This document shows, one piece after another, positions 17,647 through 28,083 of a stretch of 64,000 nucleotides of DNA. Each line of letters opens with the position of its first letter. Positions within the stretch are counted from its first letter, which is position 1. The stretch is from Chloroflexota bacterium (GTDB taxonomy: Bacteria; Chloroflexota; Dormibacteria; Dormibacterales; Dormibacteraceae): the NCBI GenBank assembly GCA_005889135.1, contig VBEK01000123.1:1-64000 (forward strand). The letters are read 5' to 3'. The notes beneath the pieces were generated by a model. That model did not search any database and had not been told where the DNA came from. It was given only the letters and a program-made list of their open reading frames with translations. A program made the translations under genes and the position numbers.

Positions 17647-18327
17647 TTACGGCAACTGGAGAAGCAGCAGCATCGTCCCCAGCGCCAGGTAGGGACCGTA
17701 GGCGATCGTGCCTTTCATCGAGCGGTGGGAGACGATGAAGACGACCGCGCCAACCGCGGCCAGCACGACTCCGTAGAAGAGGGCGGTGAACGTGTAGGGC
17801 CAGCCGAGGAGGAGGCCGATGAAGAACGCGAGCTTGACGTCGCCGAAGCCCATGGCCTCCGACTTGAAGATCGCCGCGCCCACCAAGGCGATGATCAGGA
17901 ACAGCAAGCCGGCCGCGACGCCCATCGCAAGCGCGTCGAAGAGCGGCGTGCCGTCCACCAGCGGCCGGTTGAAGAAAAGTCCCCCCGCCCACCACGGCCT
18001 GCCGACCAGCGCCGCGACCAGCGCCAGGCCCATCGAAGGAAACATGACGCGGTCGAGGATCAGGTGGTGCTCGAAGTCGAAGAAGATCACCTGGACCAGG
18101 ATCAGGACGAAGATGCTGCGCACCACCAGGACCGGCAGGGACGCGATCTCGAACGCGTAGACCGCGAACGCAATCGCCGCCAGGATCGGCGGCCCGTAGA
18201 CCTGCCAGGGCCTGCTGCCCGACTCCAGGCCTTCCAGCCGCGCCAGCTTCAAAGAACCCCAACGGACCAGCCAGCCGCCGGCGGCGCCGACCACCGCCCA
18301 CAGGATCACGGTCAGTACCTGGGTCAC
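17647..18327 (-). CDS. Prepilin peptidase, A24 aspartic protease family
   Basis: 226-residue polytopic membrane protease that removes the leader of type IV/Tad prepilins. The two catalytic aspartates fit IFFDFEHHLILD and GFGDVKLAFFIG; the cysteine-containing methylase domain of classical PilD is absent. Probably processes the TadE-type pseudopilins encoded at 38-39 kb. Starts at GTG 18325-18327 overlapping the aroE stop (GTGA), inside a shikimate/housekeeping operon rather than the Tad locus. Confidence 0.88.
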   Translation of the reverse strand: MTQVLTVILWAVVGAAGGWLVRWGSLKLARLEGLESGSRPWQVYGPPILAAIAFAVYAFEIASLPVLVVRSIFVLILVQVIFFDFEHHLILDRVMFPSMGLALVAALVGRPWWAGGLFFNRPLVDGTPLFDALAMGVAAGLLFLIIALVGAAIFKSEAMGFGDVKLAFFIGLLLGWPYTFTALFYGVVLAAVGAVVFIVSHRSMKGTIAYGPYLALGTMLLLLQLP

Positions 18328-19103
18328 GGTTGCAGAGTTTGTCGCATAGCCTCGAGGGGGGCGGATTTTCCCGTCCACAGCTCGAACGCGACCGCGCCCT
18401 GGGACAGGAGGATGCCCCAGCCGTCGGCCGTGCGAAGGCCTAGCGAGCGGGCTTTGCGCACCAGAGGCGTGCCGCCGGTCACGTAGACGAGGTCGATCAC
18501 GGCGCCCCGCTGTGGAAGCGCAGCCGGGCGCAGCGGCATCTCGTCGCGACGGCCCAGCGGCGTGGCGTTGACGAGCAGGTCGGCGGAGCGCGCCAGCGAG
18601 GCGACCAAGGGATCGCTCCAGGCCACGATCCGGCCAGGCACGTCCGCCTCATCCGGGTGCCGGCACACGAACGTCAGGTGCGCGCCGGGCAGAGCCTGGG
18701 CGGTGGCACGTGCCGCGCCGCCGGCGCCGAAGATCACCACGTTGGCGCCCTGCGGCTGGACGCCCACCTGCTCGACCGAGGCGCGGATGGCGGCGATGTC
18801 GGTGTTGTAGCCGGCGAGGCGGCCGTCCTCGTTGACGATGGTGTTGACCGCGCGGGCGCGCAGCGCGTCGTCCGCGATGGTCTGGAGGTGCTCCATCACG
18901 GCCTGCTTGTGGGGGATGGTGACGTTGGCGCCGCCGACGTCCGGCGCCCGCAGCCGCTCGAGCGTGGCGCCGAGCTCTCGCCGCTCGACGTCCAGCAGCT
19001 CATACGTCCAGTCGAGGCCGAGGGCGCTAAAGGCGGCGGCGTGCATCGCCGGGCTGGAGGAGTAAGCGATTCCGTGGCCGAGCAGAAAGACCCGCTTCGT
19101 CAG
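18324..19103 (-). CDS. aroE: Shikimate dehydrogenase (probable CTG start)
   Basis: NADPH-dependent reduction of 3-dehydroshikimate. Motifs: YSSSPAMHAAAF (shikimate site), NVTIPHK with the catalytic Lys, the Rossmann GAGGAARA, NATPLG and GWGILLSQGAVAFELWTG. No ATG, GTG or TTG lies in frame near the family N-terminus. CTG 19101-19103 overlaps the mltG stop as CTGA and gives (M)TKRVFLLGHG, which matches the usual AroE beginning; 259 residues. Confidence 0.93.
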   Translation of the reverse strand: MTKRVFLLGHGIAYSSSPAMHAAAFSALGLDWTYELLDVERRELGATLERLRAPDVGGANVTIPHKQAVMEHLQTIADDALRARAVNTIVNEDGRLAGYNTDIAAIRASVEQVGVQPQGANVVIFGAGGAARATAQALPGAHLTFVCRHPDEADVPGRIVAWSDPLVASLARSADLLVNATPLGRRDEMPLRPAALPQRGAVIDLVYVTGGTPLVRKARSLGLRTADGWGILLSQGAVAFELWTGKSAPLEAMRQTLQP

Positions 19104-20149
19104 CTGCCGCTCAGTCCGTACTTCTGCTTGTCGGCCTCGAAGTCCGCCTCGTTGGTCTCGAAATGCGTCATTCCCTGCTTGTCGGTGAAGTAGAACAGGA
19201 AGCTGGTCGTCGGCGGGTTGATGCACGCGGCCAGCGCCGCCTTGCCTGGGTTGCTGATCGGCCCTGGCGGCAGGCCGGCGTGCTTGCGCGTGTTGTAGGG
19301 CGAGTCGAGGTCGAGCTCGGCCGCGGTCGGCTCGGGGGTCAGGCGGTGCAGGGCGTAGAGAAGCGTGGCGTCCACGCCGAGGGTCATGCCCTCGCGCAGG
19401 CGGTTGTAGTAGACGCTGCAAACGTTGCCCCGGTCGGTGGACGTCTTGTTGTTCGCCTCGCGGTCGACCATCGACGCGAGGATGACGATGGTGCGCATGT
19501 CCTCCTTGGGCCGCGCGGCCGTGGCCTGGGCGATCTGCGCGCGCCAGTCGGAGCCGAAGACGACGTCGAACTGATCGAGCTGGGCCCGCACCAGCCCGGC
19601 TGACCCCGCCGTGGGGTCGACGAGGTAGGTGTCTGGAAACAGGTACCCCTCGTAGGGGAAGTCGCCGCTCGCAGCCTGCGGGAGGAAGCTGTACTTCTGG
19701 GCCAGCGCCGGATCCCTGGCGGCCCGCAGGTAGTCGGCGCCCGTGACCTGGCGGAGATTCTTCTGGTCGACCTTCTGCGCCTGGTAGAACAGCGGGAAGC
19801 CTTCCGGGAAAGTGATGGTCTTCTCATCCGGCCGCCCGTGCTGGAGCGCGGTCACGATCTGGCTGAGTGACATGTTGGTGTTGAGCACGAAGGCGCCCGC
19901 CTGGAACTTCGGACCCGCGTCGTTCAGCCGCGTGTACAAGTCGAAGGCGATCGTGCTGCGGATGAGCCGCAGGTTGTAGAGGTCGTTGCCGATCTGGGTC
20001 GGCGTCTCTCCCGGATCGATGTGGAACGACACGCTGTGGCTGGTCGTCGTCATCGGGGTGTTGACGTTGAAGTTCCACCAATCGATGGCTCTCGACGTGC
20101 CGAAACCGAGCAGAGCGAGGATGACGACGACAGCGATCAGGCGCCTCAT
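19100..20149 (-). CDS. mltG: Endolytic murein transglycosylase MltG
   Basis: 349-residue membrane-anchored lytic transglycosylase that cuts nascent peptidoglycan. One N-terminal membrane segment (3-19), a LysM-like region (about 38-105), then the YceG domain with FPYEGYLFPDTY and SPYNTRKHAGLPPGPISNPG. The segment usually read as S-I-V-E-K-E is ASMVDRE at 226-231, so the usual catalytic Glu position holds Asp229. Starts at ATG 20147-20149 overlapping the DUF1292 stop. Confidence 0.93.
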   Translation of the reverse strand: MRRLIAVVVILALLGFGTSRAIDWWNFNVNTPMTTTSHSVSFHIDPGETPTQIGNDLYNLRLIRSTIAFDLYTRLNDAGPKFQAGAFVLNTNMSLSQIVTALQHGRPDEKTITFPEGFPLFYQAQKVDQKNLRQVTGADYLRAARDPALAQKYSFLPQAASGDFPYEGYLFPDTYLVDPTAGSAGLVRAQLDQFDVVFGSDWRAQIAQATAARPKEDMRTIVILASMVDREANNKTSTDRGNVCSVYYNRLREGMTLGVDATLLYALHRLTPEPTAAELDLDSPYNTRKHAGLPPGPISNPGKAALAACINPPTTSFLFYFTDKQGMTHFETNEADFEADKQKYGLSGS

Positions 20150-20367
20150 TCGATGCGATCCTCTTCCAGCGCTTTCATGACCCGGCTGAACTCTTCGCCG
20201 TCGACAGTCTCCAGGCCGGCGTCGGATTCGCGCAGCAGCATCACCTGCTCGGGCGCCGAGACGTCCTCGACGAGGTAGTAGGCGACACCGTCGAGGTCGA
20301 ACGCGTCGTGCAGCGAAAAGCGTCGCTCGACGCCGCTCTCGTCGACGAGAGTGACTTCGTCACTCAC
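20146..20367 (-). CDS. DUF1292 family small protein
   Basis: 73-residue acidic protein (EVTLVDESGVERRFSLHDAFDLDGVAYYLVE) of the DUF1292/YrzB type, conserved next to ruvX (yqgF) in Gram-positive-type bacteria; function unknown. GTG start at 20365-20367 overlaps the ruvX stop (GTGA); its own stop overlaps mltG (ATGA). Confidence 0.85.
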   Translation of the reverse strand: MSDEVTLVDESGVERRFSLHDAFDLDGVAYYLVEDVSAPEQVMLLRESDAGLETVDGEEFSRVMKALEEDRIE

Positions 20368-20777
20368 CGCTTCTTGGCGTCGAGGTGTGACTGAAGAAGA
20401 ATCCCCGCGGCCACGCGGTCAATGTTGGCGCGTCGCTTTTCGCGGCGCATGCCGGCCGCGAGCAGCGAGCGCTCCGCGGCAACCGTCGTCAGCCGCTCGT
20501 CGACCAGCTCGACGGCGAGCCTCGATGCCTTGCGCAGCTCTTCAGCCAGCTCGCGAGCTGCCTTGGCCTCGGGTCCGAACGAGCCGTCCATGCGGCGCGG
20601 CAGGCCGACCACGATCCTGGTGGCCTCCCGCTCGCGGGCCACGTCCGCGAGCCGCTCCGCCAGGGTCGCCCTCGGCTCGGCCGGGATCGTCGCCAGGGGC
20701 TGCGCGATGGTGCCGGTCGGGTCGCTGACCGCCAGGCCAACCCGCTTCGACCCGAGGTCGACCGCGAGCACCCTCAC
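20364..20777 (-). CDS. ruvX: Putative pre-16S rRNA nuclease / Holliday junction resolvase RuvX (YqgF)
   Basis: 137-residue RNase H-fold protein. Motifs: VLAVDLGSKRVGLAVSD (first acidic residue), VGLPRRMDGSFG and VELVDERLTTVAAERSLL. YqgF trims the 5' end of 16S rRNA in E. coli; Holliday-junction activity is the older annotation. GTG start 20775-20777. Heads ruvX-DUF1292-mltG-aroE. Confidence 0.93.
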   Translation of the reverse strand: MRVLAVDLGSKRVGLAVSDPTGTIAQPLATIPAEPRATLAERLADVAREREATRIVVGLPRRMDGSFGPEAKAARELAEELRKASRLAVELVDERLTTVAAERSLLAAGMRREKRRANIDRVAAGILLQSHLDAKKR

Positions 20778-20787
20778 GAAGACGGCG

Positions 20788-22380
20788 CTAGTGAGAGGGC
20801 GAGGGCGAAGGGCTTGGCGTGCCCTGCGCCGCGGCCTCGGCGGACGGCGCGTTGGACTCGACCACGTAGTGGAGCTCGATGCGCCGGTCCAGCAGCGGCA
20901 TGAGCGGCAGCGCCAACGGCGACTCTTTGATCGCCACCGAGCGGATGGGCAGAGTGCTGAGGTAGAAGCGAGCCTGCTGCACGGGCCGGCCCACGATCTG
21001 GGCGCGAATCTTCGCCTCGTCGAGCTTCGGCGCCACGTACGCGGACGCGCTGCCGACGAAAACGAGATAACCGCCCTTGGCCGCGCTCAGCAACCTGTAC
21101 TGGACCTGGATTGGGCTCTCGGTGAGCAGCTGCTGGTTGTTGGGCACCCGCTGCGCGAGGTACGTCTTGAACGCCTGGATGACTTCGGCGTCGACGTAGT
21201 AGTCGCCCTCGCCACTCACCGTCATCGTGCCGGTGAAGCTGGGCACCTTGTCCTGCGGCTGGTGGTCGGTCGAAAACTGAGGCGGGCCGAAGATCACGGT
21301 CTCGCTCAGCTTCTCGCCCTGCTGGGTCGCTGCGCCGAGCTCCTGCGCGATCGTCTGGTGCAGGGACTGCTCGAGCTGCGCCCGCGCGGCGTCGAAGTCG
21401 GAAACCGTCATCTGGGGCGTCGACGAGGGATCGGTGCCGCCGCCGGTGGCCTGGGGGTTCGTGACATGAATCTTGTTCGGGTCGAAAGGCCCACAGCAAT
21501 CCTCAATCCGCGTGATCGTGTGGTCTCCGACGTTGCCGACCGATCCAGGCGTCACAGCGATTACGTTCACCGTCTTCTGGCCGCCATTCCACGGGACGAC
21601 TGTGTCAGGCGATGTCTGTGCAAATTCGATGCCGTTGCTGTTCATCAAGCGCTGGCCGTACTTGAACACCAAACCAGGAGAATTGGTGAACGCGGAACTC
21701 TTCAGGTCGTTGCTGTACACGACCTGCCCAGTGGAGGGCGCGAGCGGGACTTCGATCGAGCCCGTCACCTTGAAGCCCTGGGAGGTCGACTTCGAGAGCG
21801 AGACCGTGCGCACCTTGATCGGCGGTTTGCCGGGCTGGGCCTGGATCTCCACATCCTTCTGCGTGAAGGGCTGCGCCTGGGCAACCAGCGTCACCGACGC
21901 CGACGGCACGAAGACCGCGGCGGCGAAGAAGCCGACCAGGATCAAGGTGATCGCGGTGACGTAGAGCAGGAAGCGTCCGGGCTTGATCTCGGTCGCCGTC
22001 TTGGTGAGGAGCTTGCGCGGCGCGCCGACCCCGACGTGCGTCGTCTCCGCTGCATGCTTGCGCTGCCACCACTTGCGGACCGGCGGCGCCGGGTCCGCCT
22101 CGGACGGAATCCCCTGCCCCTCCGGCCCGACGGCTCCGAAGACCGGGAACCCGGACTCGGAGGCCATCTTCTGCACAGCCGGGTCGTCGCACACGACGGT
22201 GACACGTTTGCCCAGCCTGGCCGAGTAGTTGCGCAGCAGCTGGAAGTTGAAGCGGCTCTGCCCGATGCGCGAACGCATGGGCAGGACGAGCATCGTGTCC
22301 TCGCCGTGGTAGCGACGAAGGCGCTCGACGAGCTCCGGAATCTCCTCCTCGGTTTCGACGTAGATCGGGTTCGTTGCCAT
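20788..22380 (-). CDS. Baseplate-J-like single-pass membrane protein, function unknown
   Basis: 530 residues: a cytosolic N-terminal region (1-136, with a Rossmann-like ERVTVVCDD-type segment around 57-66), one transmembrane helix (about 137-158), then a large beta-rich outer region starting VPSASVTLVAQAQPFTQKDVEI and including TGQVVYSNDL and a Pro/Ser-rich end. The outer part resembles the baseplate J/gp47-like proteins annotated in Chloroflexota and Patescibacteria chromosomes, which are not phage genes. It lies 28 bases after the PilM/FtsA-like gene, so the two probably form a functional pair. Confidence 0.65.
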   Translation of the reverse strand: MATNPIYVETEEEIPELVERLRRYHGEDTMLVLPMRSRIGQSRFNFQLLRNYSARLGKRVTVVCDDPAVQKMASESGFPVFGAVGPEGQGIPSEADPAPPVRKWWQRKHAAETTHVGVGAPRKLLTKTATEIKPGRFLLYVTAITLILVGFFAAAVFVPSASVTLVAQAQPFTQKDVEIQAQPGKPPIKVRTVSLSKSTSQGFKVTGSIEVPLAPSTGQVVYSNDLKSSAFTNSPGLVFKYGQRLMNSNGIEFAQTSPDTVVPWNGGQKTVNVIAVTPGSVGNVGDHTITRIEDCCGPFDPNKIHVTNPQATGGGTDPSSTPQMTVSDFDAARAQLEQSLHQTIAQELGAATQQGEKLSETVIFGPPQFSTDHQPQDKVPSFTGTMTVSGEGDYYVDAEVIQAFKTYLAQRVPNNQQLLTESPIQVQYRLLSAAKGGYLVFVGSASAYVAPKLDEAKIRAQIVGRPVQQARFYLSTLPIRSVAIKESPLALPLMPLLDRRIELHYVVESNAPSAEAAAQGTPSPSPSPSH

Positions 22381-22408
22381 GTCGTCTATCGGTCTCCTGG
22401 CGGTCTGG

Positions 22409-23668
22409 TCAAACCTTTATAGCGCTTAGGACCCGTCTCATGACGGTGTTCACTGTGTCGCGCTCCTCCGCTTCAGTTCGCAGGGCGTGGTTGGCGAGGC
22501 CCATCGGGGCTATGTCCTGGGGGCTCGCGAGCTGCCCCGTGGAGTCGGTCAGGTTGCGCACGTCGGCCGGCACCAGGTGCCTGACTCGTGGCTCGCGCGG
22601 GAACGGCAGCCCGGCCGCCCAGCTGTTCTTCACCATCTCGAGGGTCAGCTCGGGGAGCAGGCTCCCTCCGCCGCAGAGATAGATGCTGGACGGCAGGCGC
22701 TCGCCCCGCGAGAGCTCCTTGATGCTGAGCGCGAGGCCCTGGAGCAGCACCTCGGCGTCAGAGCTCAGCAGGTCTGACACCTGGCGGTGCTGGTCAGCCG
22801 AAAGCAGACCCTCCGAGTGCCGCAGCTTGCGCGCTTCCGCCTCCTCGTAGCTCAGGCCGAAGGCAAGCGCGAGACGGCGTGTGAAGGCGCGGCCGCCGAG
22901 GTTGAACATGCGCGTCCCCTCCACCCCGCCGTCGCGGATCAGCGCGACGTCGGTCGTGCCGCCGCCGACGTCGACGAAGATTCCGCCCTCGGCCCAGATC
23001 TCCTCGTTGGCACACGCGCGCGCCAGCGCGTAGGGCTGGGCCACCGCGGCGGCGAGCTCGAGGTCGAGCTCGCGGACCACAGTCTCCACAGCGTCGATAT
23101 GGGTCATCGGCGCGAAGGTATTGAAGACCGTGACCTCGAGGTTCTTGCCCGTGAAGCCGACCGGGTTGGTGACAGGGTAGCCGTCGACGCGCACGTTCGT
23201 GATCGCGGAGTGCACCAGCCGGGCCTCGAGCTGGCCGTAGCTGCGCTCCATCTCCAGCAGGTGCTGCGCCTCGCGGAGGGCGCGGCGCTGGACCATCTGC
23301 AGCATCGTCGACATCTCGGCGGAGCGCACGCGCGACTTGGAGTTCTCCCTCGGGTAGGCGATCGTCGACGAGAAGCCCTTGATCAGCTCGCCGGCGATCC
23401 CGACCACGACCTGGCCCGGCACCGTCCGCGCCATGTCCTCGGCCGCCTCGAGGGCCCGGTTGCAGCACCGGATCACGGCCTCGAGGTCGGCGATCGCCCC
23501 GCCGGACATCGCCGCCGGGGCCTGGGGTTCGCGACCGACCCCGAGGACCTCGCCGTCCGGGCCCTCGCGGCGAACGACCAGGACCTTGATCAGGTCGGTG
23601 CCGATGTCGAGCACGGTGAAGTGCCGGTAGTAATCGCTGCGCTTGCGCAGGAACTTGAACTTGGCCAT
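22409..23668 (-). CDS. PilM/FtsA-like actin-fold ATPase
   Basis: 419 residues of the actin/Hsp70 fold: phosphate-1 FTVLDIGTDLIKVLVV (17-32), an SHS2-like insert, phosphate-2 GGIFVDVGGGTTDVALI (about 230-246) and the adenosine motif IYLCGGGSLLPEL. FtsA and PilM are both candidates; a true FtsA would normally sit next to ftsZ and end in an amphipathic helix, neither of which is seen. The neighbour is a single-pass protein with a cytosolic N-terminal domain, the geometry of PilM-PilN. ATG start 23666-23668 overlaps the alaS stop (TGATG). Confidence 0.78.
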   Translation of the reverse strand: MAKFKFLRKRSDYYRHFTVLDIGTDLIKVLVVRREGPDGEVLGVGREPQAPAAMSGGAIADLEAVIRCCNRALEAAEDMARTVPGQVVVGIAGELIKGFSSTIAYPRENSKSRVRSAEMSTMLQMVQRRALREAQHLLEMERSYGQLEARLVHSAITNVRVDGYPVTNPVGFTGKNLEVTVFNTFAPMTHIDAVETVVRELDLELAAAVAQPYALARACANEEIWAEGGIFVDVGGGTTDVALIRDGGVEGTRMFNLGGRAFTRRLALAFGLSYEEAEARKLRHSEGLLSADQHRQVSDLLSSDAEVLLQGLALSIKELSRGERLPSSIYLCGGGSLLPELTLEMVKNSWAAGLPFPREPRVRHLVPADVRNLTDSTGQLASPQDIAPMGLANHALRTEAEERDTVNTVMRRVLSAIKV

Positions 23669-26229
23669 CAGGTTTTGAGCGCCTCGTCGAGCTGCCGGAA
23701 GGCTTCGTCCGCGGACACGCCGCTCAGGGTGCCCGTGACCAGATGCGCCGGACCGCCGCCCTTGCCTCCGAAGAAAGCCTTGAGGCGGTTGGCATCGTAC
23801 TGGTTGGTGAGGTCCCGGGACACCTTGATCACAAACTTGTCCCCGGCGACAAGGGTTACGATCCCCGACCTCACCTTCTCCAGGTAGCGGTCGGCGAACG
23901 ACTTCAGTTCCTCCACGCTCGAAGCGTCCACGGTTTCGGTCACGTAGTCGACCCGGCCGTGCTTGACGGACATCCCATCTCCCGCGATCCTCGCCTTGCG
24001 GAGACGGTCGCGGTCGCGCTCCGCCTCCTTGAGCTGGGTGCGCAGAGCCTCGATCCGCTGCGGCAGTTGATCAGGGGTGACGTTGAACGAGCGAGCCAGG
24101 TCCCCGAGCAGGGCCTGGTTGCGGCGGACAAGCTCGTCGGCGGCCTCGCCGACCACCATGTCGATGCGCCGCAAGCCGGAGCCGATGCTCGACTCGGAGA
24201 TGATCACCGCGGTGCCGATGTCGGCGGTGTTCTTGACGTGCGTGCCGCCGCAGAGCTCGCACGTCCAGTCGCCGAAGCACACGACGCGCACCACGTCGCC
24301 GTACTTCTCCTCGAAGAGGTGCATGGCGCCTTGCGCCACCGCCTCGCGATACGGCCTCTGGCTCTCCTTGAAGGGAAGGCCTTCGCGCACCTTCTCCATC
24401 ACGCGGCGATTAATGCGGTCGAGCTCGTCTCTCGTGACCGCGCGACCGAGCGGAATGTCGAAAGTCGTGTGGTCGGGGCCGACCCACGAGCCTTTCTGGA
24501 CGACGTTCTCGCCGAGCGTTTCACGCAGCGCCTTGTGCAGCAGGTGCGTGGCGGAGTGGTGGCGCATGATCTGGCGCCTGCGTTTCTCGTCGACCGCGGC
24601 CGTGGCCTTCTCGCCGGGCACTATCTCCCCTGTCACCACCGTGCCCAGGTGGGCGATCGCGCCCTCCGCCGGCTTCTGCGTGTCTTCGACGCGCACGCGT
24701 CCACTCGGGGTCGTGATGACGCCGGTGTCGCCGATCTGCCCGCCCGACTCGGCGTAGAAGGGCGTGCGCTCGAGGAAGACCTCGACCTGGTCGCCTTCCC
24801 CGGCGCTGTCGACGTTTACGCCCTCGCGACGCACGGCCTCGACCTTCGTCTCGGTGGTCAGCTCGCGATAGCCGGTGAACTCCGACATCGGGATGTCCTT
24901 GGCCAGCGCCCACTGGTTGGGGATAGCGCGTCGCGACCGCCCGCGCTGAAGCTCCATCTCGGAGCGAAAGCCCTGCTCGTCGACCTCCAGATTGCGCGCG
25001 GCGGCCAGCTCGCGCGTCAGCTCGACGGGAAAGCCGAAGGTGTCGTGGAGCCGGAAGGCGTCGGGCCCTGACAACATCTTCGCGCCGCGGGACGCGACCT
25101 TCTCGAACTGCTCCATGCCCTGCTCGAGGGTGCGCGCGAACCGCTCCGCCTCGGCATCGATCGTGTCGGTGATCAGTCGCTCGCGCTCGCCGAGCTCCGG
25201 GTAGTGGTCCTTGAACATCGCGACCGTGCGCTTCGCGCCGGCCGACAATTTGTCAGACATGCCGATGTTGCGCGCGTGCAGGGCCGCGCGACGCGTCAGG
25301 CGGCGGAGCACGTAGCCGCGACCTTCGTTCGAAGGCACGACGCCGTCGCAGACGCAGAACGTGATCGCACGCACGTGGTCGGCGATGATCCGCTCCGAGA
25401 GCTGCGCCGGCTTTTTGCTCGACTCCCGCGCCCACTCGACGAGGGGCGCCAGCACGTCGGCCTCGAAGACGTTGCTCTTGTCCTGGAGGATGAAGCTGAT
25501 CCGTTCCAGGCCCATGCCGGTGTCGATCGCGGGACGCGCGAGCGGCACCAGGGCGCCGTCGGCGATGCCGCGCTGGATCGACTCCGCCGTGGTCGGCGGC
25601 ATGGCGAGGTCGGCACGCTGGTCGTACTGCGGCAACACCAGGTTCCAGAACTCGGTGAAGCGCTCGCAGTGGTCGGGGTAGCAGTCAGGCTGTCCGCACC
25701 CGGCGTTGCGGCCGCGGTCCCACCAGATCTCGGTGTCGGGACCGCATGGTCCGCGACCCAGGCCCCACCAGTTGTCGCCGAGCCGCGTCACGTGCTCGGC
25801 GGGGATGGTCGTGTTGCTCGTCCAGATCTGGAACGCGTCATCGTCGGAAGGGTGCACCGTGACGCGGAGGCGGTCGACGGGCATGGCAAAACCTTTGGTC
25901 ACCAGCTCCCACGCCAGCGGAATGGCGGTCTCCTTGAAGTAGTCGCCTGTCGGCGCGAAGTTGCCGAGCATCTCGAAGAAGGTGTTGTGCCGGTCGGTCT
26001 TCCCCACCTCCTCGATGTCCCCCGTGCGCAGGCACTTCTGCGCGCTCGCCAGCCGGGGCGCGGGCGGCTTGCTCAAGCCCAGGTAGTAGGGCTGGAGCGG
26101 CTGCATTCCGGCCGAGATGAAGAGCGTGCTCGGGTCGCCGTGCGGCACCAGAGGCGCGCTGGGCAGGACCAGATGCTCCCGGCTCGCGAAATGCTCTAGA
26201 AATCGTCGGCGGATCTCGTTCCCGGTCAC
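23668..26229 (-). CDS. alaS: Alanyl-tRNA synthetase
   Basis: 853-residue class II synthetase. N-terminal EIRRRFLEHFASREHLVLPSAPL, aminoacylation core, editing domain with HHSATHLLHKALRE and CELCGGTHV (zinc ligands HxxxH and CxxxH-type), and a C-terminal DHHA1 region ending FFGGKGGGPAHLVTG. Starts at GTG 26227-26229, which fits the family N-terminus; a longer open frame runs back over pdxH but is a shadow. A TAAACT -10 box lies 11 bases upstream. Confidence 0.96.
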   Translation of the reverse strand: MTGNEIRRRFLEHFASREHLVLPSAPLVPHGDPSTLFISAGMQPLQPYYLGLSKPPAPRLASAQKCLRTGDIEEVGKTDRHNTFFEMLGNFAPTGDYFKETAIPLAWELVTKGFAMPVDRLRVTVHPSDDDAFQIWTSNTTIPAEHVTRLGDNWWGLGRGPCGPDTEIWWDRGRNAGCGQPDCYPDHCERFTEFWNLVLPQYDQRADLAMPPTTAESIQRGIADGALVPLARPAIDTGMGLERISFILQDKSNVFEADVLAPLVEWARESSKKPAQLSERIIADHVRAITFCVCDGVVPSNEGRGYVLRRLTRRAALHARNIGMSDKLSAGAKRTVAMFKDHYPELGERERLITDTIDAEAERFARTLEQGMEQFEKVASRGAKMLSGPDAFRLHDTFGFPVELTRELAAARNLEVDEQGFRSEMELQRGRSRRAIPNQWALAKDIPMSEFTGYRELTTETKVEAVRREGVNVDSAGEGDQVEVFLERTPFYAESGGQIGDTGVITTPSGRVRVEDTQKPAEGAIAHLGTVVTGEIVPGEKATAAVDEKRRRQIMRHHSATHLLHKALRETLGENVVQKGSWVGPDHTTFDIPLGRAVTRDELDRINRRVMEKVREGLPFKESQRPYREAVAQGAMHLFEEKYGDVVRVVCFGDWTCELCGGTHVKNTADIGTAVIISESSIGSGLRRIDMVVGEAADELVRRNQALLGDLARSFNVTPDQLPQRIEALRTQLKEAERDRDRLRKARIAGDGMSVKHGRVDYVTETVDASSVEELKSFADRYLEKVRSGIVTLVAGDKFVIKVSRDLTNQYDANRLKAFFGGKGGGPAHLVTGTLSGVSADEAFRQLDEALKT

Positions 26230-26240
26230 GGGGTTAGCTG

Positions 26241-26246
26241 AGTTTA
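26241..26246 (-). promoter_or_regulatory. -10 box (TAAACT) of alaS, overlapping the pdxH stop
   Basis: TAAACT on the minus strand ends 11 bases before the alaS GTG and contains the TAA stop codon of pdxH (26244-26246). This would start the transcript about 4 bases before the gene. Confidence 0.4.
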
Positions 26247-26840
26247 GGGGGCGAGCCGTTCGATGCGCCAAGCGCCGTTGCTGCGAAGGACGTAGCGCAG
26301 GCGGTCGTGGAGCCGGTCCTCGCGGCTCTCCCAGAACTCGATCCAGCGCGGTCGCAGGGCGTAGCCGCCCCACTCGCGGGGCAGGGGCACATCATCGGGG
26401 TAACGCTCGGCCAGCTCGCTGACGCGTTCCTCGAGGGCCTGGCGCGAGCGCAGGATCTTGCTCTGGCGCGAGGCCAGCGCGGACAGCTGCGCGCCACGGG
26501 GCCGCGTGGCGAAGTACTGCTCCGAAGCGGCACGGCCGAGCCGGCGCACCGCCCCCGCGACCCGCACCTGGTGGTGCGTGACGAACCAGTAGAAGACGAG
26601 CGCCGCGCGCCGGTCGTGCACCAGGTCGCGGCCCTTGAGGCTCGCGTAGTTGGAGTAGAAGAGAAAGGCGCCATCCTCCAGGCCCTTGAAGAGGACCATC
26701 CGCGCCGATGGGCCTTCCTCGCCGTAGGTCGCCAGCGCCATGGCGTCGGGCTGGGGCGCGCCCGCCTCCTGCGCCTCGCGATACCAGCGTTGGAAGAGGA
26801 TGAAGGGGTCCCGCGGGGCTTCTGCCTCGAGCAGCGGCAC
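26244..26840 (-). CDS. pdxH: Pyridoxamine 5'-phosphate oxidase
   Basis: 198-residue FMN enzyme that makes pyridoxal phosphate. Family features: PDAMALATYGEEGPSARMVLFKGLEDGAFLFYSNY (FMN site), RRAALVFYWFVTHHQVRVAGAVRRL, and C-terminal WGGYALRPRWIEFWESREDRLHDRLRY. GTG start 26838-26840, five bases after the sigF stop. Confidence 0.94.
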   Translation of the reverse strand: MPLLEAEAPRDPFILFQRWYREAQEAGAPQPDAMALATYGEEGPSARMVLFKGLEDGAFLFYSNYASLKGRDLVHDRRAALVFYWFVTHHQVRVAGAVRRLGRAASEQYFATRPRGAQLSALASRQSKILRSRQALEERVSELAERYPDDVPLPREWGGYALRPRWIEFWESREDRLHDRLRYVLRSNGAWRIERLAP

Positions 26841-26845
26841 GGCTG

Positions 26846-27628
26846 CTAGCCCGCGCTTTCTTGCGGCACGTACTTGCGCAGCTGCTCCAGCGCCGCGCGC
26901 TGCAGCCGCGATACGTGCATCTGGCTGATGCCCAGCCGGCGCGCGATCTCGGACTGCGACATTTGCTCGTAGAACCTCATGGCCATGATCGCGCGCTCAC
27001 GCGGCGTCAGGTGCTCCATCGCCCGGTCGAGCACGTCGCGCATCTCCACGCGCTCGAGCTCGGGATCCGCGCCGCCGATCTGCTCGGCCACCGAGCGGTT
27101 GTCCTGCCCGTCGCTGGCGACCGGCTGGTCGAGCGAGACCGGAACGTAGGCGGGCCCGATCTCCATCGCCTCCGTGACGTCGTCCGGCGACACTCCGAGG
27201 CGTTCCGCCAGCTCCCCCACCGTGGGCTCGCGGCCGAGCTCGTTCTTCATCTGCTCGTTCACGCGCACGACCGACTGGTGCAGCTCCTGCAGGCGCCGCG
27301 GGAAGCGGATCGCGGTGCCCTTGTCCCGGAAGTAGCGCTTGATCTCCCCCGCCACCGTCAGGGTGGCGAAGGTCGTGAACTCGTAGCCGAGGTCCGGGTC
27401 GAACCGCTCGATGGCCTTGATCAGGCCCAGGTAGCCGACCTGCACGATGTCGTCCAGCGGCTCGCCGCGGTTGGCGAACTTGCGCGCGAGGAAGTAGACG
27501 AAGTCGTGGTACGAGTCGACCAGCTGGGCGCGGACGCCGTCGCGCTCGGCGGGGTCGATGGTCTCCTTGTAGCGGCGATGGAGCTCCCGCAGCTCCTCGC
27601 GCGGAAGACGCGCGGACGAAGCGCTCAC
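26846..27628 (-). CDS. SigB/SigF-type RNA polymerase sigma factor
   Basis: 260-residue group 3 sigma factor. Region 2: DFVYFLARKFANRGEPLDDIVQVGYLGLIKAIERFDPDLGYEFTTFATLTVAGEIKRYFRDK; region 3 with LGREPTVGELAERLGVSPDDVTEA; region 4 with the helix-turn-helix MSQSEIARRLGISQMHVSRLQR. GTG start 27626-27628 with AGGT just upstream. The next gene upstream is a degenerate RsbW-like protein, so this looks like a general-stress or partner-switching module, here reduced. Confidence 0.93.
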   Translation of the reverse strand: MSASSARLPREELRELHRRYKETIDPAERDGVRAQLVDSYHDFVYFLARKFANRGEPLDDIVQVGYLGLIKAIERFDPDLGYEFTTFATLTVAGEIKRYFRDKGTAIRFPRRLQELHQSVVRVNEQMKNELGREPTVGELAERLGVSPDDVTEAMEIGPAYVPVSLDQPVASDGQDNRSVAEQIGGADPELERVEMRDVLDRAMEHLTPRERAIMAMRFYEQMSQSEIARRLGISQMHVSRLQRAALEQLRKYVPQESAG

Positions 27629-27657
27629 TACCTATTAGTTAAGCCGGAGCAGGAACT

Positions 27658-28083
27658 TCAGCCCGCCAGGTGCTTGACCATCCGGAAGCTCACGTGTCCG
27701 GTGCGCGGCTCGATGACCGGTCTGAAGTCATCGACGAAGCAGCGGATCATCTCGTAGGCAAGCCGCTGCAGCTCGGGGTCCACGTGCGTGGCGTGGGCGT
27801 GGGCAGGCACGGGCAAAGTGGCGCCCGTGGGCATCAGGTCGACGTCCACGACCAGAGCTCGGTTGGTCGCGAAGTAGGTGAGTTTGAGGTCGGCCGGCGT
27901 GCCCAGCTCCTCGGCCGCACCGATGGCGCTGTCGCAGGCCTGCGTGAGCGCGATCGAGAGCTCGTCCAGGTCCATGAGGCTGAGGCCGAGCTGGCCGCCC
28001 AGCGTCGTCGCCACGCGCTTGGCCACCGGGATGAACTCCGGCGACGCAGGGATCTTCAGCTCGGCCAGGTTGCGCTTCGCCAT
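27658..28083 (-). CDS. Degenerate RsbW/SpoIIAB-like anti-sigma protein
   Basis: 141 residues with the GHKL ATPase pattern of anti-sigma kinases (PASPEFIPVAKRVATTLGGQLGLSLMDLDELSIALTQACDSAIGAA). In active RsbW/SpoIIAB the N-box has Glu (general base) and Asn (Mg binding); the aligned residues here are Gln48 and Ser52, and no DxGxG G1 box is visible. It may therefore bind the sigma factor without phosphorylating an anti-anti-sigma factor. Lies 29 bases upstream of the sigma gene, same strand. Confidence 0.75.
   Translation of the reverse strand: MAKRNLAELKIPASPEFIPVAKRVATTLGGQLGLSLMDLDELSIALTQACDSAIGAAEELGTPADLKLTYFATNRALVVDVDLMPTGATLPVPAHAHATHVDPELQRLAYEMIRCFVDDFRPVIEPRTGHVSFRMVKHLAG

Follow-up and report, generated by a model that had tools for sequence, protein, structure and literature searches.

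A distinct FtsA-family ATPase and a baseplate-J-like membrane protein form a conserved gene pair in Chloroflexota and Patescibacteria

Results

Two genes between alaS and ruvX-mltG

The window, meaning the whole 64,000-nucleotide stretch of DNA that was analysed, comes from a soil Chloroflexota bacterium of the Dormibacteria. Between alaS and ruvX-mltG it carries two ORFs on the minus strand, each with an ATG start codon, and the two adjacent, co-oriented genes of the preliminary description were borne out at the coordinates below. The alaS stop overlaps the ATPase start by one base at position 23668, the gap between the ATPase and partner genes is 28 nt, and 10 nt separate the partner stop from the ruvX start. 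The features of the locus are as follows.

23668-26373, minus strand: alaS (alanyl-tRNA synthetase), directly upstream, linkage conserved; coordinates are those of the listed ORF, and the real start codon may be internal
22409-23668, minus strand: actin-like ATPase of the FtsA family, 419 aa, a second FtsA that belongs to a distinct family
20788-22380, minus strand: partner, a bitopic membrane protein of 530 aa with a cytosolic domain, a transmembrane segment and a baseplate-J-like outer region
22111-22380, minus strand: partner N-terminal domain (NTD), residues 1-90, a conserved cytosolic alpha/beta domain and proposed ATPase docking site
21910-21975, minus strand: partner residues 136-157, single transmembrane helix predicted from the structure model
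20851-21903, minus strand: partner residues 160-510, extracytoplasmic region, of which 208-321 match baseplate J/gp47 wedge proteins
20364-20777, minus strand: ruvX (YqgF), directly downstream of the partner, linkage conserved
19100-20149, minus strand: mltG (endolytic transglycosylase, YceG), conserved linkage with the pair
17647-18378: A24 prepilin-peptidase gene, four genes downstream

The ATPase is distinct from the ftsZ-linked FtsA

The ATPase exceeded the cut-offs of two Pfam families, PF14450 FtsA (49.7 bits, cut-off 31.8) and PF11104 PilM_2 (34.2 bits, cut-off 27), and matched PF02491 weakly, under its cut-off. Its AlphaFold2 model (pLDDT 90.2, pTM 0.89) has an actin-like fold with the FtsA-type subdomain 1C. 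The top solved structures were FtsA (7q6i, E 1.1e-30), matched over its full length with a TMt of about 0.80, and then PilM (5eou, E 1.0e-22), with the PilM structure 2ych also among the fold matches. The nucleotide motifs are kept (D21/G23, D233-G-G-G-T-T and G333-G334). An amphipathic C-terminal end is a property of FtsA, and the C-terminal end here is conserved, basic and amphipathic: over the last 16 residues of 104 family sequences the hydrophobic moment had a mean z of 2.0 (internal control, 0.08) and the net charge was +2.5. An N-terminal amphipathic signal was weak (z 0.72) and was not used.

By the preliminary description, ftsZ-linked synteny marking the ATPase as plain FtsA would have refuted it. 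We rejected plain FtsA because the protein scored 112.4 bits against the FtsA equivalog TIGR01174, under the cut-off of 175.85, because the ftsZ-linked FtsA of the same genome is another gene, adjoining FtsZ on a different contig, because canonical FtsA over the cut-off accompanies the ATPase family in 32 of the 35 Patescibacteria genomes that have it, and because the alaS-linked family formed a separate clade (support 98) from 20 canonical FtsA sequences, which grouped together (95). These supports are SH-aLRT values; the tree search was a quick one, and divergent members sit on long branches. Family-specific residues, D385 (59/60) and P388 (58/60), differ from those of canonical FtsA. Comparison shows the ATPase to be a distinct FtsA-family paralog with its nucleotide motifs kept.

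A paralog of this kind might still serve the divisome, by binding FtsZ or co-polymerising with canonical FtsA, with the partner as an FtsN-like septal activator. The nearest solved relatives are FtsA structures, including the FtsA-FtsN complex 7q6i, the C-terminal end is FtsA-like, and canonical FtsA is retained alongside the family, in this genome and in the Patescibacteria counted above, as a helper role predicts. Against this, ftsZ linkage is absent, the clade is separate, and D385 and P388 set the family apart; we consider a divisome role improbable.

The partner combines a cytosolic domain with a baseplate-J-like outer region

The model of the partner (pLDDT 82.8) placed a single membrane helix at residues 136-157, in agreement with the 136-residue cytosolic part and single membrane pass first proposed for it. 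The proposed baseplate-like outer domain also stood: residues 230-317 matched PF04865 Baseplate_J at 27.2 bits (cut-off 21.1), and in fold comparison residues 208-321, and more loosely up to about 505, matched phage baseplate J/gp47 chains. Searched by sequence against solved structures, the NTD gave no match; by fold it gave weak STAS/Rossmann-like matches with Z of about 5 to 7, a range that the tool calls common. Its conserved motifs include DEEIT and QSxVNLxLL. Comparison shows the partner to be bitopic, with one predicted membrane helix between a conserved cytosolic domain and an outer region of the baseplate J type.

The fold match with baseplate J/gp47 chains, together with a match to a PHROG baseplate wedge family (E 2e-6), could mean that the partner derives from a phage tail or contractile injection system, as a relic or as a domesticated component. 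However, tblastn against 50,697 phage records found no match, viral contigs held no relative of the ATPase, and the housekeeping locus, with alaS, ruvX and mltG as neighbours, is kept across two phyla. A phage remnant was rejected on these grounds and is, in our judgement, barely conceivable.

The resemblance to PilM raises another possibility, that the pair belongs to a secretion machine or to one resembling the type IV pilus. The ATPase would then act as PilM, and the partner would be the bridge, like PilN, with an outer part that aligns an extracytoplasmic assembly. The PilM-like fold and the PF11104 match agree with this, as do the A24 prepilin-peptidase gene and the PilM-like genes found after mltG at four loci of Patescibacteria (L105, L126, L136 and L138). 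Those genes, however, lie next to the pair and group in a clade of their own in the tree, so the pair itself is not PilM. The ATPase scored 37 bits against TIGR01175 (PilM), far under the cut-off of 133, which was passed nowhere in any of the 21 genomes of the window's class. No pilMNO cluster was found at the locus, where the ATPase is followed by the partner, ruvX and mltG, and the partner's outer part is baseplate-J-like rather than PilN-like. PilM membership was rejected on the score, the separate clade and the absence of a passing gene in the class, and we regard a pilus-like machine as unlikely.

The pair and its gene order are shared with Patescibacteria

The ATPase family was found in 41/151 sampled Chloroflexota-type genomes, including 18/18 of the window's class, and in about 90 of 145 Patescibacteria genomes. 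The latter count is approximate because one Patescibacteria genome (G302) had a match to the ATPase profile of 107.6 bits that lay apart from any partner and scored like canonical FtsA (81-120 bits); this match is probably FtsA, judging from its sequence. Among the best 80 of 525 relatives in a contig scan, the named ones were Chloroflexi, Dormibacterota or Patescibacteria-type.

Besides the window, the partner lies directly downstream of the ATPase in 40/40 Chloroflexota-type loci, in a few of which a contig end cuts the partner. In Patescibacteria it directly follows the ATPase in 84/91 genomes, with a median gap of 56 nt, among the matches listed (150 from 136 genomes, three more partner-bearing genomes lying outside them). 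The order alaS-ATPase-partner-ruvX-mltG is common to Chloroflexota-type and Patescibacteria loci, and at some loci (L049, L055) ATPase and partner remain adjacent although alaS is missing. Since the pair is conserved in two phyla, chance is excluded as its explanation. The partner is commoner than the ATPase, occurring in 114/151 Chloroflexota-type and 139/145 Patescibacteria genomes; neighbourhoods were fetched for 40 Chloroflexota-type genomes lacking a strong ATPase and for 60 Patescibacteria, a part of the genomes sampled. The co-occurrence expected at the outset thus holds from ATPase to partner but fails in reverse. Because the partner often occurs alone, the outer part, whatever its function, can do without the ATPase. 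Pairing of the ATPase with the partner is well supported. A description of the pair was not found in the available parts of the literature searched, supplements aside (including PMC10633639, PMC7613929, PMC10608941 and PMC12329446).

A probable link between the ATPase and the partner's cytosolic domain

Eight Patescibacteria partners, forming one clade (support 88), carry an N-terminal ATPase-family domain, a degenerate copy that stands in place of the partner's own cytosolic domain. In hhalign this fused domain matched the ATPase family with a probability of 98.2 (E 2.9e-14), against 31.5 for canonical FtsA, 1.7 for PilM and 0.1 for a reversed control. The initial comparison of the pair with PilM-PilN, or with FtsA and its membrane partner, is strengthened by this clade as an analogy; membership in PilM-PilN was not supported. 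There is a precedent in the available part of PMC7613929, where the IA-IC cleft is the site at which FtsA and PilM bind the tails of FtsN and PilN.

Among full-length Patescibacteria partners (those under 370 aa were dropped from the NTD counts), the NTD was present in 56/58 beside an ATPase versus 14/40 without one. An NTD-like region was still present in 30/38 ATPase-less Chloroflexota-type partners, which points to another use there or to slow decay, and the NTD match was missing in three partners beside a divergent ATPase (L186, L188 and L218). After correction for relatedness, co-occurrence of NTD and ATPase was not significant (11 independent pairs, median p 0.25), with 3.4 pairs on average changing the same way and 0.1 the opposite way; this test skipped sixteen named loci as duplicates or truncated, dropped rows with fewer than 250 outer residues and excluded the eight fused proteins. 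Given these 30/38 exceptions and this outcome, we rejected the strict rule that the NTD is present if and only if the ATPase is. Over the 37 loci left after thinning of near-identical ones, distance matrices of ATPase and NTD were correlated (partial r 0.59 given RuvX and MltG), versus -0.02 for ATPase-RuvX and 0.35 for ATPase-MltG.

The fusion, the co-occurrence and the matrix correlation bear indirectly on a possible FtsN/PilN-like docking, in which the partner's cytosolic part would bind the ATPase. These observations also bear on whether the two proteins work separately, as mere neighbours in a conserved housekeeping operon. Since alaS, ruvX and mltG are functionally unrelated, inertia can be enough to pass on the gene order at this locus. 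But the fusion clade, the NTD loss accompanying ATPase loss, the matrix correlation and the adjacency kept without alaS all speak against such independence, which we consider very improbable.

Partner occurrence follows MurG in Chloroflexota-type genomes

The partner was present in 2/18 MurG-lacking and 112/133 MurG-bearing Chloroflexota-type genomes and, when the same comparison was made by family code, in 0/8 versus 44/49. A further observation is that 21 MurG-bearing genomes of this type also lack the partner. This pattern may reflect one event, because Dehalococcoidales/SAR202 probably lost the dcw genes a single time, according to the available part of PMC10608941. Patescibacteria are uninformative here, with MurG in 143/145 genomes including all six that lack a partner match. 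The mltG linkage and the MurG pattern together suggest that the pair is linked to the wall.

Discussion

Many Patescibacteria carry this pair in an identical gene order, which makes it look like an old, undescribed cell-envelope device. The best reading, for which we find the balance of probability even, is that the pair couples the cytosol to the envelope in connection with the peptidoglycan wall; its build would be that of FtsA-FtsN and PilM-PilN, but it would belong to neither. The ATPase would use its basic amphipathic C-terminal end to sit against the inner side of the membrane and would dock on the partner NTD, and its ATP-dependent assembly or conformational change would gather partners together or set their position. 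Outside the membrane, the baseplate-like domains of several partners might in turn assemble into a scaffold or ring within the wall zone and so organise peptidoglycan remodelling or hold it in check, possibly that by MltG, whose gene is linked. After loss of the ATPase, the outer part would persist as a passive wall component, with the NTD decayed or missing. More tentatively, and with somewhat less confidence than we give the coupler, the pair could represent an unnamed ancestral envelope system of Chloroflexota and Patescibacteria, in which a second FtsA makes nucleotide-dependent filaments or rings at the inner membrane and arranges a wall-shaping baseplate-like ring via the docking domain. 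If so, the alaS-ATPase-partner-ruvX-mltG order would count as a rare genomic character that unites Patescibacteria and Chloroflexota, and would bear on the debated position of Patescibacteria beside Chloroflexota/Dormibacterota (PMC12329446, available part).

About 60% of sampled Patescibacteria, despite very small genomes, conserve this paralog of a protein central to cell division, together with a membrane partner dedicated to it. Many chromosomal 'baseplate J' annotations of this kind would be envelope proteins and not phage remains. The ATPase with partner residues 1-90 offers a concrete, testable target.

Comparison with known systems

The pair shares with FtsA-FtsN (7Q6I) an FtsA-family actin fold, an amphipathic ATPase C-terminal end, and a bitopic partner with an N-terminal cytosolic part, proposed to dock on the ATPase, and an outer domain. 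It differs in lying at an alaS-ruvX-mltG locus instead of beside ftsZ, in a separate ATPase clade with canonical FtsA alongside, in a cytosolic part that is a folded domain of about 90 aa where FtsN has a tail of about 32 aa, and in a baseplate-J-like outer region. With PilM-PilN (2YCH, 5EOU) it has in common a similar fold and the gene of an actin-like cytosolic protein upstream of, and adjoining, that of a bitopic partner; the ATPase, however, is under the PilM cut-off in a clade of its own, the partner's outer part is not PilN-like, and some Patescibacteria loci contain PilM-like genes as well as the pair. Partner residues 208-321, and loosely those up to about 505, share the fold of baseplate J/gp47-gp6 (PF04865), wedge proteins of phages and contractile injection systems, but the partner is membrane-anchored and chromosomal, with a cytosolic domain and housekeeping neighbours. 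The gene order around the wall lytic transglycosylase resembles the MltG locus (alaS-ruvX-mltG) of monoderm bacteria. In Firmicutes and Actinomycetota other genes occupy the alaS-ruvX gap, whereas here it is filled by the ATPase and its partner.

Organization of the locus

An FtsA-family actin-like protein (the ATPase, 419 aa) and a bitopic membrane protein with a baseplate-J-like outer region (the partner, 530 aa) are encoded side by side on the minus strand; both genes were present where the preliminary description had placed them.

17647-18378, minus strand: A24 prepilin peptidase gene (PF01478, 41.8 bits)
20788-22380, minus strand: partner gene
22409-23668, minus strand: ATPase gene
26846-28083, minus strand: sigma-factor-like gene and small anti-sigma-kinase-like gene (both assigned by eye)

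The minus strand reads hisS, aspS, a DUF948-type gene, the sigma-like gene, alaS, ATPase, partner, ruvX, mltG, aroE, the prepilin-peptidase-like gene, aroK and onward, with hisS, aspS, alaS, sigma, aroE and aroK assigned by eye. One base is shared between the alaS stop and the ATPase start, and gaps of 28 and 10 nt separate ATPase from partner and partner from ruvX. The sigma-factor-like and anti-sigma-kinase-like genes lie directly upstream of alaS, and the prepilin peptidase gene sits within the shikimate/mltG operon, as in related loci. The genome is a draft (2.95 Mb, 94.7% complete). Near-identical loci (95-98% identity) are labelled Chloroflexi or Candidatus Dormiibacterota among the matches listed, the best 80 of 525 relatives.

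Distribution of the pair

We surveyed an even sample of 151 genomes from the phylum of the window, taken as Chloroflexota in a broad sense (Chloroflexota-type) on the labels of the near-identical loci. Full-length ATPase matches of at least 100 bits were found in 41, including 18 of 18 from the window's class; the next-best match, 75 bits, was within the canonical FtsA range. The partner (or its start at a contig end) lay directly downstream of the ATPase in 40 of 40 other loci. alaS was upstream in 33 of these; five are cut before it by the end of the contig, and L049 and L055 lack it. Divergent ATPases adjoin the partner in five more genomes (loci L141, L146, L151, L160, L164). The partner profile matched in 114 of the 151 genomes, and in ATPase-less loci the partner often lies directly between alaS and ruvX.

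Of 145 Patescibacteria genomes, 139 matched the partner profile and 91 the ATPase profile at E up to 1e-30; the match in G302, counted among the 91, is probably FtsA. The partner followed the ATPase on the same strand within at most 3 kb in 84 of the 91 (median gap 56 nt). The order alaS-ATPase-partner-ruvX-mltG, small insertions allowed, is common to both groups, with exceptions in some Patescibacteria (e.g. L100-L104), where the pair lacks adjoining ruvX and mltG. Patescibacteria are treated as the sister group of Chloroflexota/Dormibacterota in a recent review (PMC12329446); common inheritance is therefore the simplest reading of this order, with transfer an alternative, in a survey covering these two groups.

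Several ATPase-less Patescibacteria loci (L202-L206, L210, L219) carry sugar-phosphate-isomerase-like genes, recognized by eye and of two unrelated types, between alaS and partner. In L218, alaS is followed by a very divergent FtsA/PilM-like protein (373 aa, 52 bits) and then by a partner whose stretch ahead of the membrane helix is only about 26 residues long, an architecture closer to PilM-PilN.

Distinction of the ATPase from FtsA and PilM

That the ATPase might be plain, ftsZ-linked FtsA did not hold: the FtsA-like gene adjoining FtsZ is a second gene, on another contig of the same genome (C14). Plain FtsA is ruled out by this separate gene, by an FtsA equivalog score of 112.4 bits, short of the cut-off of 175.85, and by a tree of 78 sequences in which canonical FtsA (n=20; 10 Chloroflexota-type and 10 Patescibacteria) forms one group and the alaS-linked family another. 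Within that family, Chloroflexota-type sequences (support 93) stand apart from 13 of 14 Patescibacteria sequences (95). These supports are SH-aLRT values of a quick tree search, with long branches in divergent members. FtsA above cut-off (338-422 bits) also occurs in 32 of 35 Patescibacteria genomes bearing the ATPase family, whose family members score 84-124 bits. On the PilM model (cut-off 133) the ATPase scored 37 bits.

The nucleotide-motif residues examined are conserved in 56-60 of 60 family members; D385 (59/60) and P388 (58/60) are unlike canonical FtsA. The C-terminal end is basic and amphipathic (mean z 2.0, net charge +2.5, 104 sequences; internal control 0.08).

Small, MurG-lacking genomes of family code f10 (e.g. 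G007, G030, G074) each show a pair of matches at FtsA level, with E from about 1e-14 to 1e-21, so that they may have a different second FtsA.

Architecture of the partner

An AlphaFold2 model gave an alpha/beta domain (1-85), a disordered linker, a single membrane helix (136-157) and an outer region (160-510). The outer part matches phage baseplate J/gp47 chains in fold. Residues 1-90, the conserved cytosolic domain (NTD), include the motifs DEEIT and QSxVNLxLL; no sequence relatives of the NTD were found among solved structures, and its fold matches were weak.

In Streptomyces GlxA, a beta-barrel region also matches the baseplate-J-like core (residues 213-314; Z 12.8, rmsd 1.9 over 93 residues), an unexpected likeness in fold; PF21110 matched weakly in L240. 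Large genomes of family code f19 (G059, G068, G050, G148 and others) mostly have 6 to 10 partner-profile matches each, often in long ORFs of 650-1170 aa and partly clustered; baseplate-J-like membrane proteins that stand alone have thus expanded in these genomes.

Comparative evidence for coupling of ATPase and partner

In eight Patescibacteria proteins, one clade by outer domain (support 88), about 360 N-terminal residues replace the NTD. Compared by hhalign, their profile matched that of the ATPase family with probability 98.2 (E 2.9e-14), versus 31.5 for canonical FtsA, 1.7 for PilM, 0.5 for the NTD and 0.1 for a reversed control. The fusion is a single evolutionary event. With no equivalent of subdomain 1C and a degenerate phosphate-2 loop, the copy in these proteins probably serves as a scaffold and not as an ATPase.

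Full-length Patescibacteria partners had the NTD in 56 of 58 cases beside the ATPase versus 14 of 40 without it, and fewer than 80 residues preceded the membrane helix in 0 of 58 versus 9 of 40. Chloroflexota-type partners had it in 70 of 72 versus 30 of 38; the two NTD-less among the 72 are short ORFs with no membrane helix detected. Corrected for relatedness, the trend kept its direction and was not significant (11 pairs, of which 3.4 agreed with the trend and 0.1 ran against it on average; median p 0.25). Pairwise distances over 37 loci gave an ATPase-NTD partial r of 0.59, beyond RuvX and MltG; the ATPase correlated at 0.47 with the outer part, 0.35 with MltG and -0.02 with RuvX. Comparison supports the proposed anatomy of the pair and its coupling.

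A possible wall function

mltG, the peptidoglycan lytic transglycosylase gene, is linked to the pair in both groups. MurG is missing from 18 of the 151 Chloroflexota-type genomes, and the partner is present in 2 of these versus 112 of 133 MurG-bearing genomes; the two are drafts with MurG-bearing relatives. By family code (tallied by hand), the figures are 0 of 8 versus 44 of 49. The partner is absent from 21 MurG-bearing genomes, and the lineages without MurG may all go back to a single loss (PMC10608941). MurG is present in 143 of 145 Patescibacteria genomes, and the comparison therefore says nothing there. The mltG linkage and the MurG pattern hint at a wall function.

Proposed mechanism and comparison with known systems

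In the mechanism that we propose, the C-terminal end would tether the ATPase to the membrane and the ATPase would dock on the NTD. ATP-bound and assembled, it would gather partners, whose outer domains would build a ring or scaffold within the wall zone that guides or limits wall remodelling. The later steps, from assembly and ring formation to the role in the wall, are inferred. The rival explanations, in descending order, are pilus-like assembly, an accessory of the divisome, two genes that merely adjoin, and a remnant of a phage.

The portions of the literature searched yielded no description of the pair; the words baseplate, FtsA and PilM are absent from the searched main text of a Saccharibacteria Tn-seq paper (PMC10633639), and baseplate and FtsA from the searched text of a Patescibacteria protein-family paper (PMC6744442). 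Coupling of this kind has a precedent in FtsA-FtsN and PilM-PilN, where the bitopic partner inserts its cytosolic tail into the IA-IC cleft of the actin-like protein (PMC7613929). The arrangement of an actin-like ATPase beside a bitopic protein is known; what appears new is the type of partner, the putative docking domain and the locus of its own.
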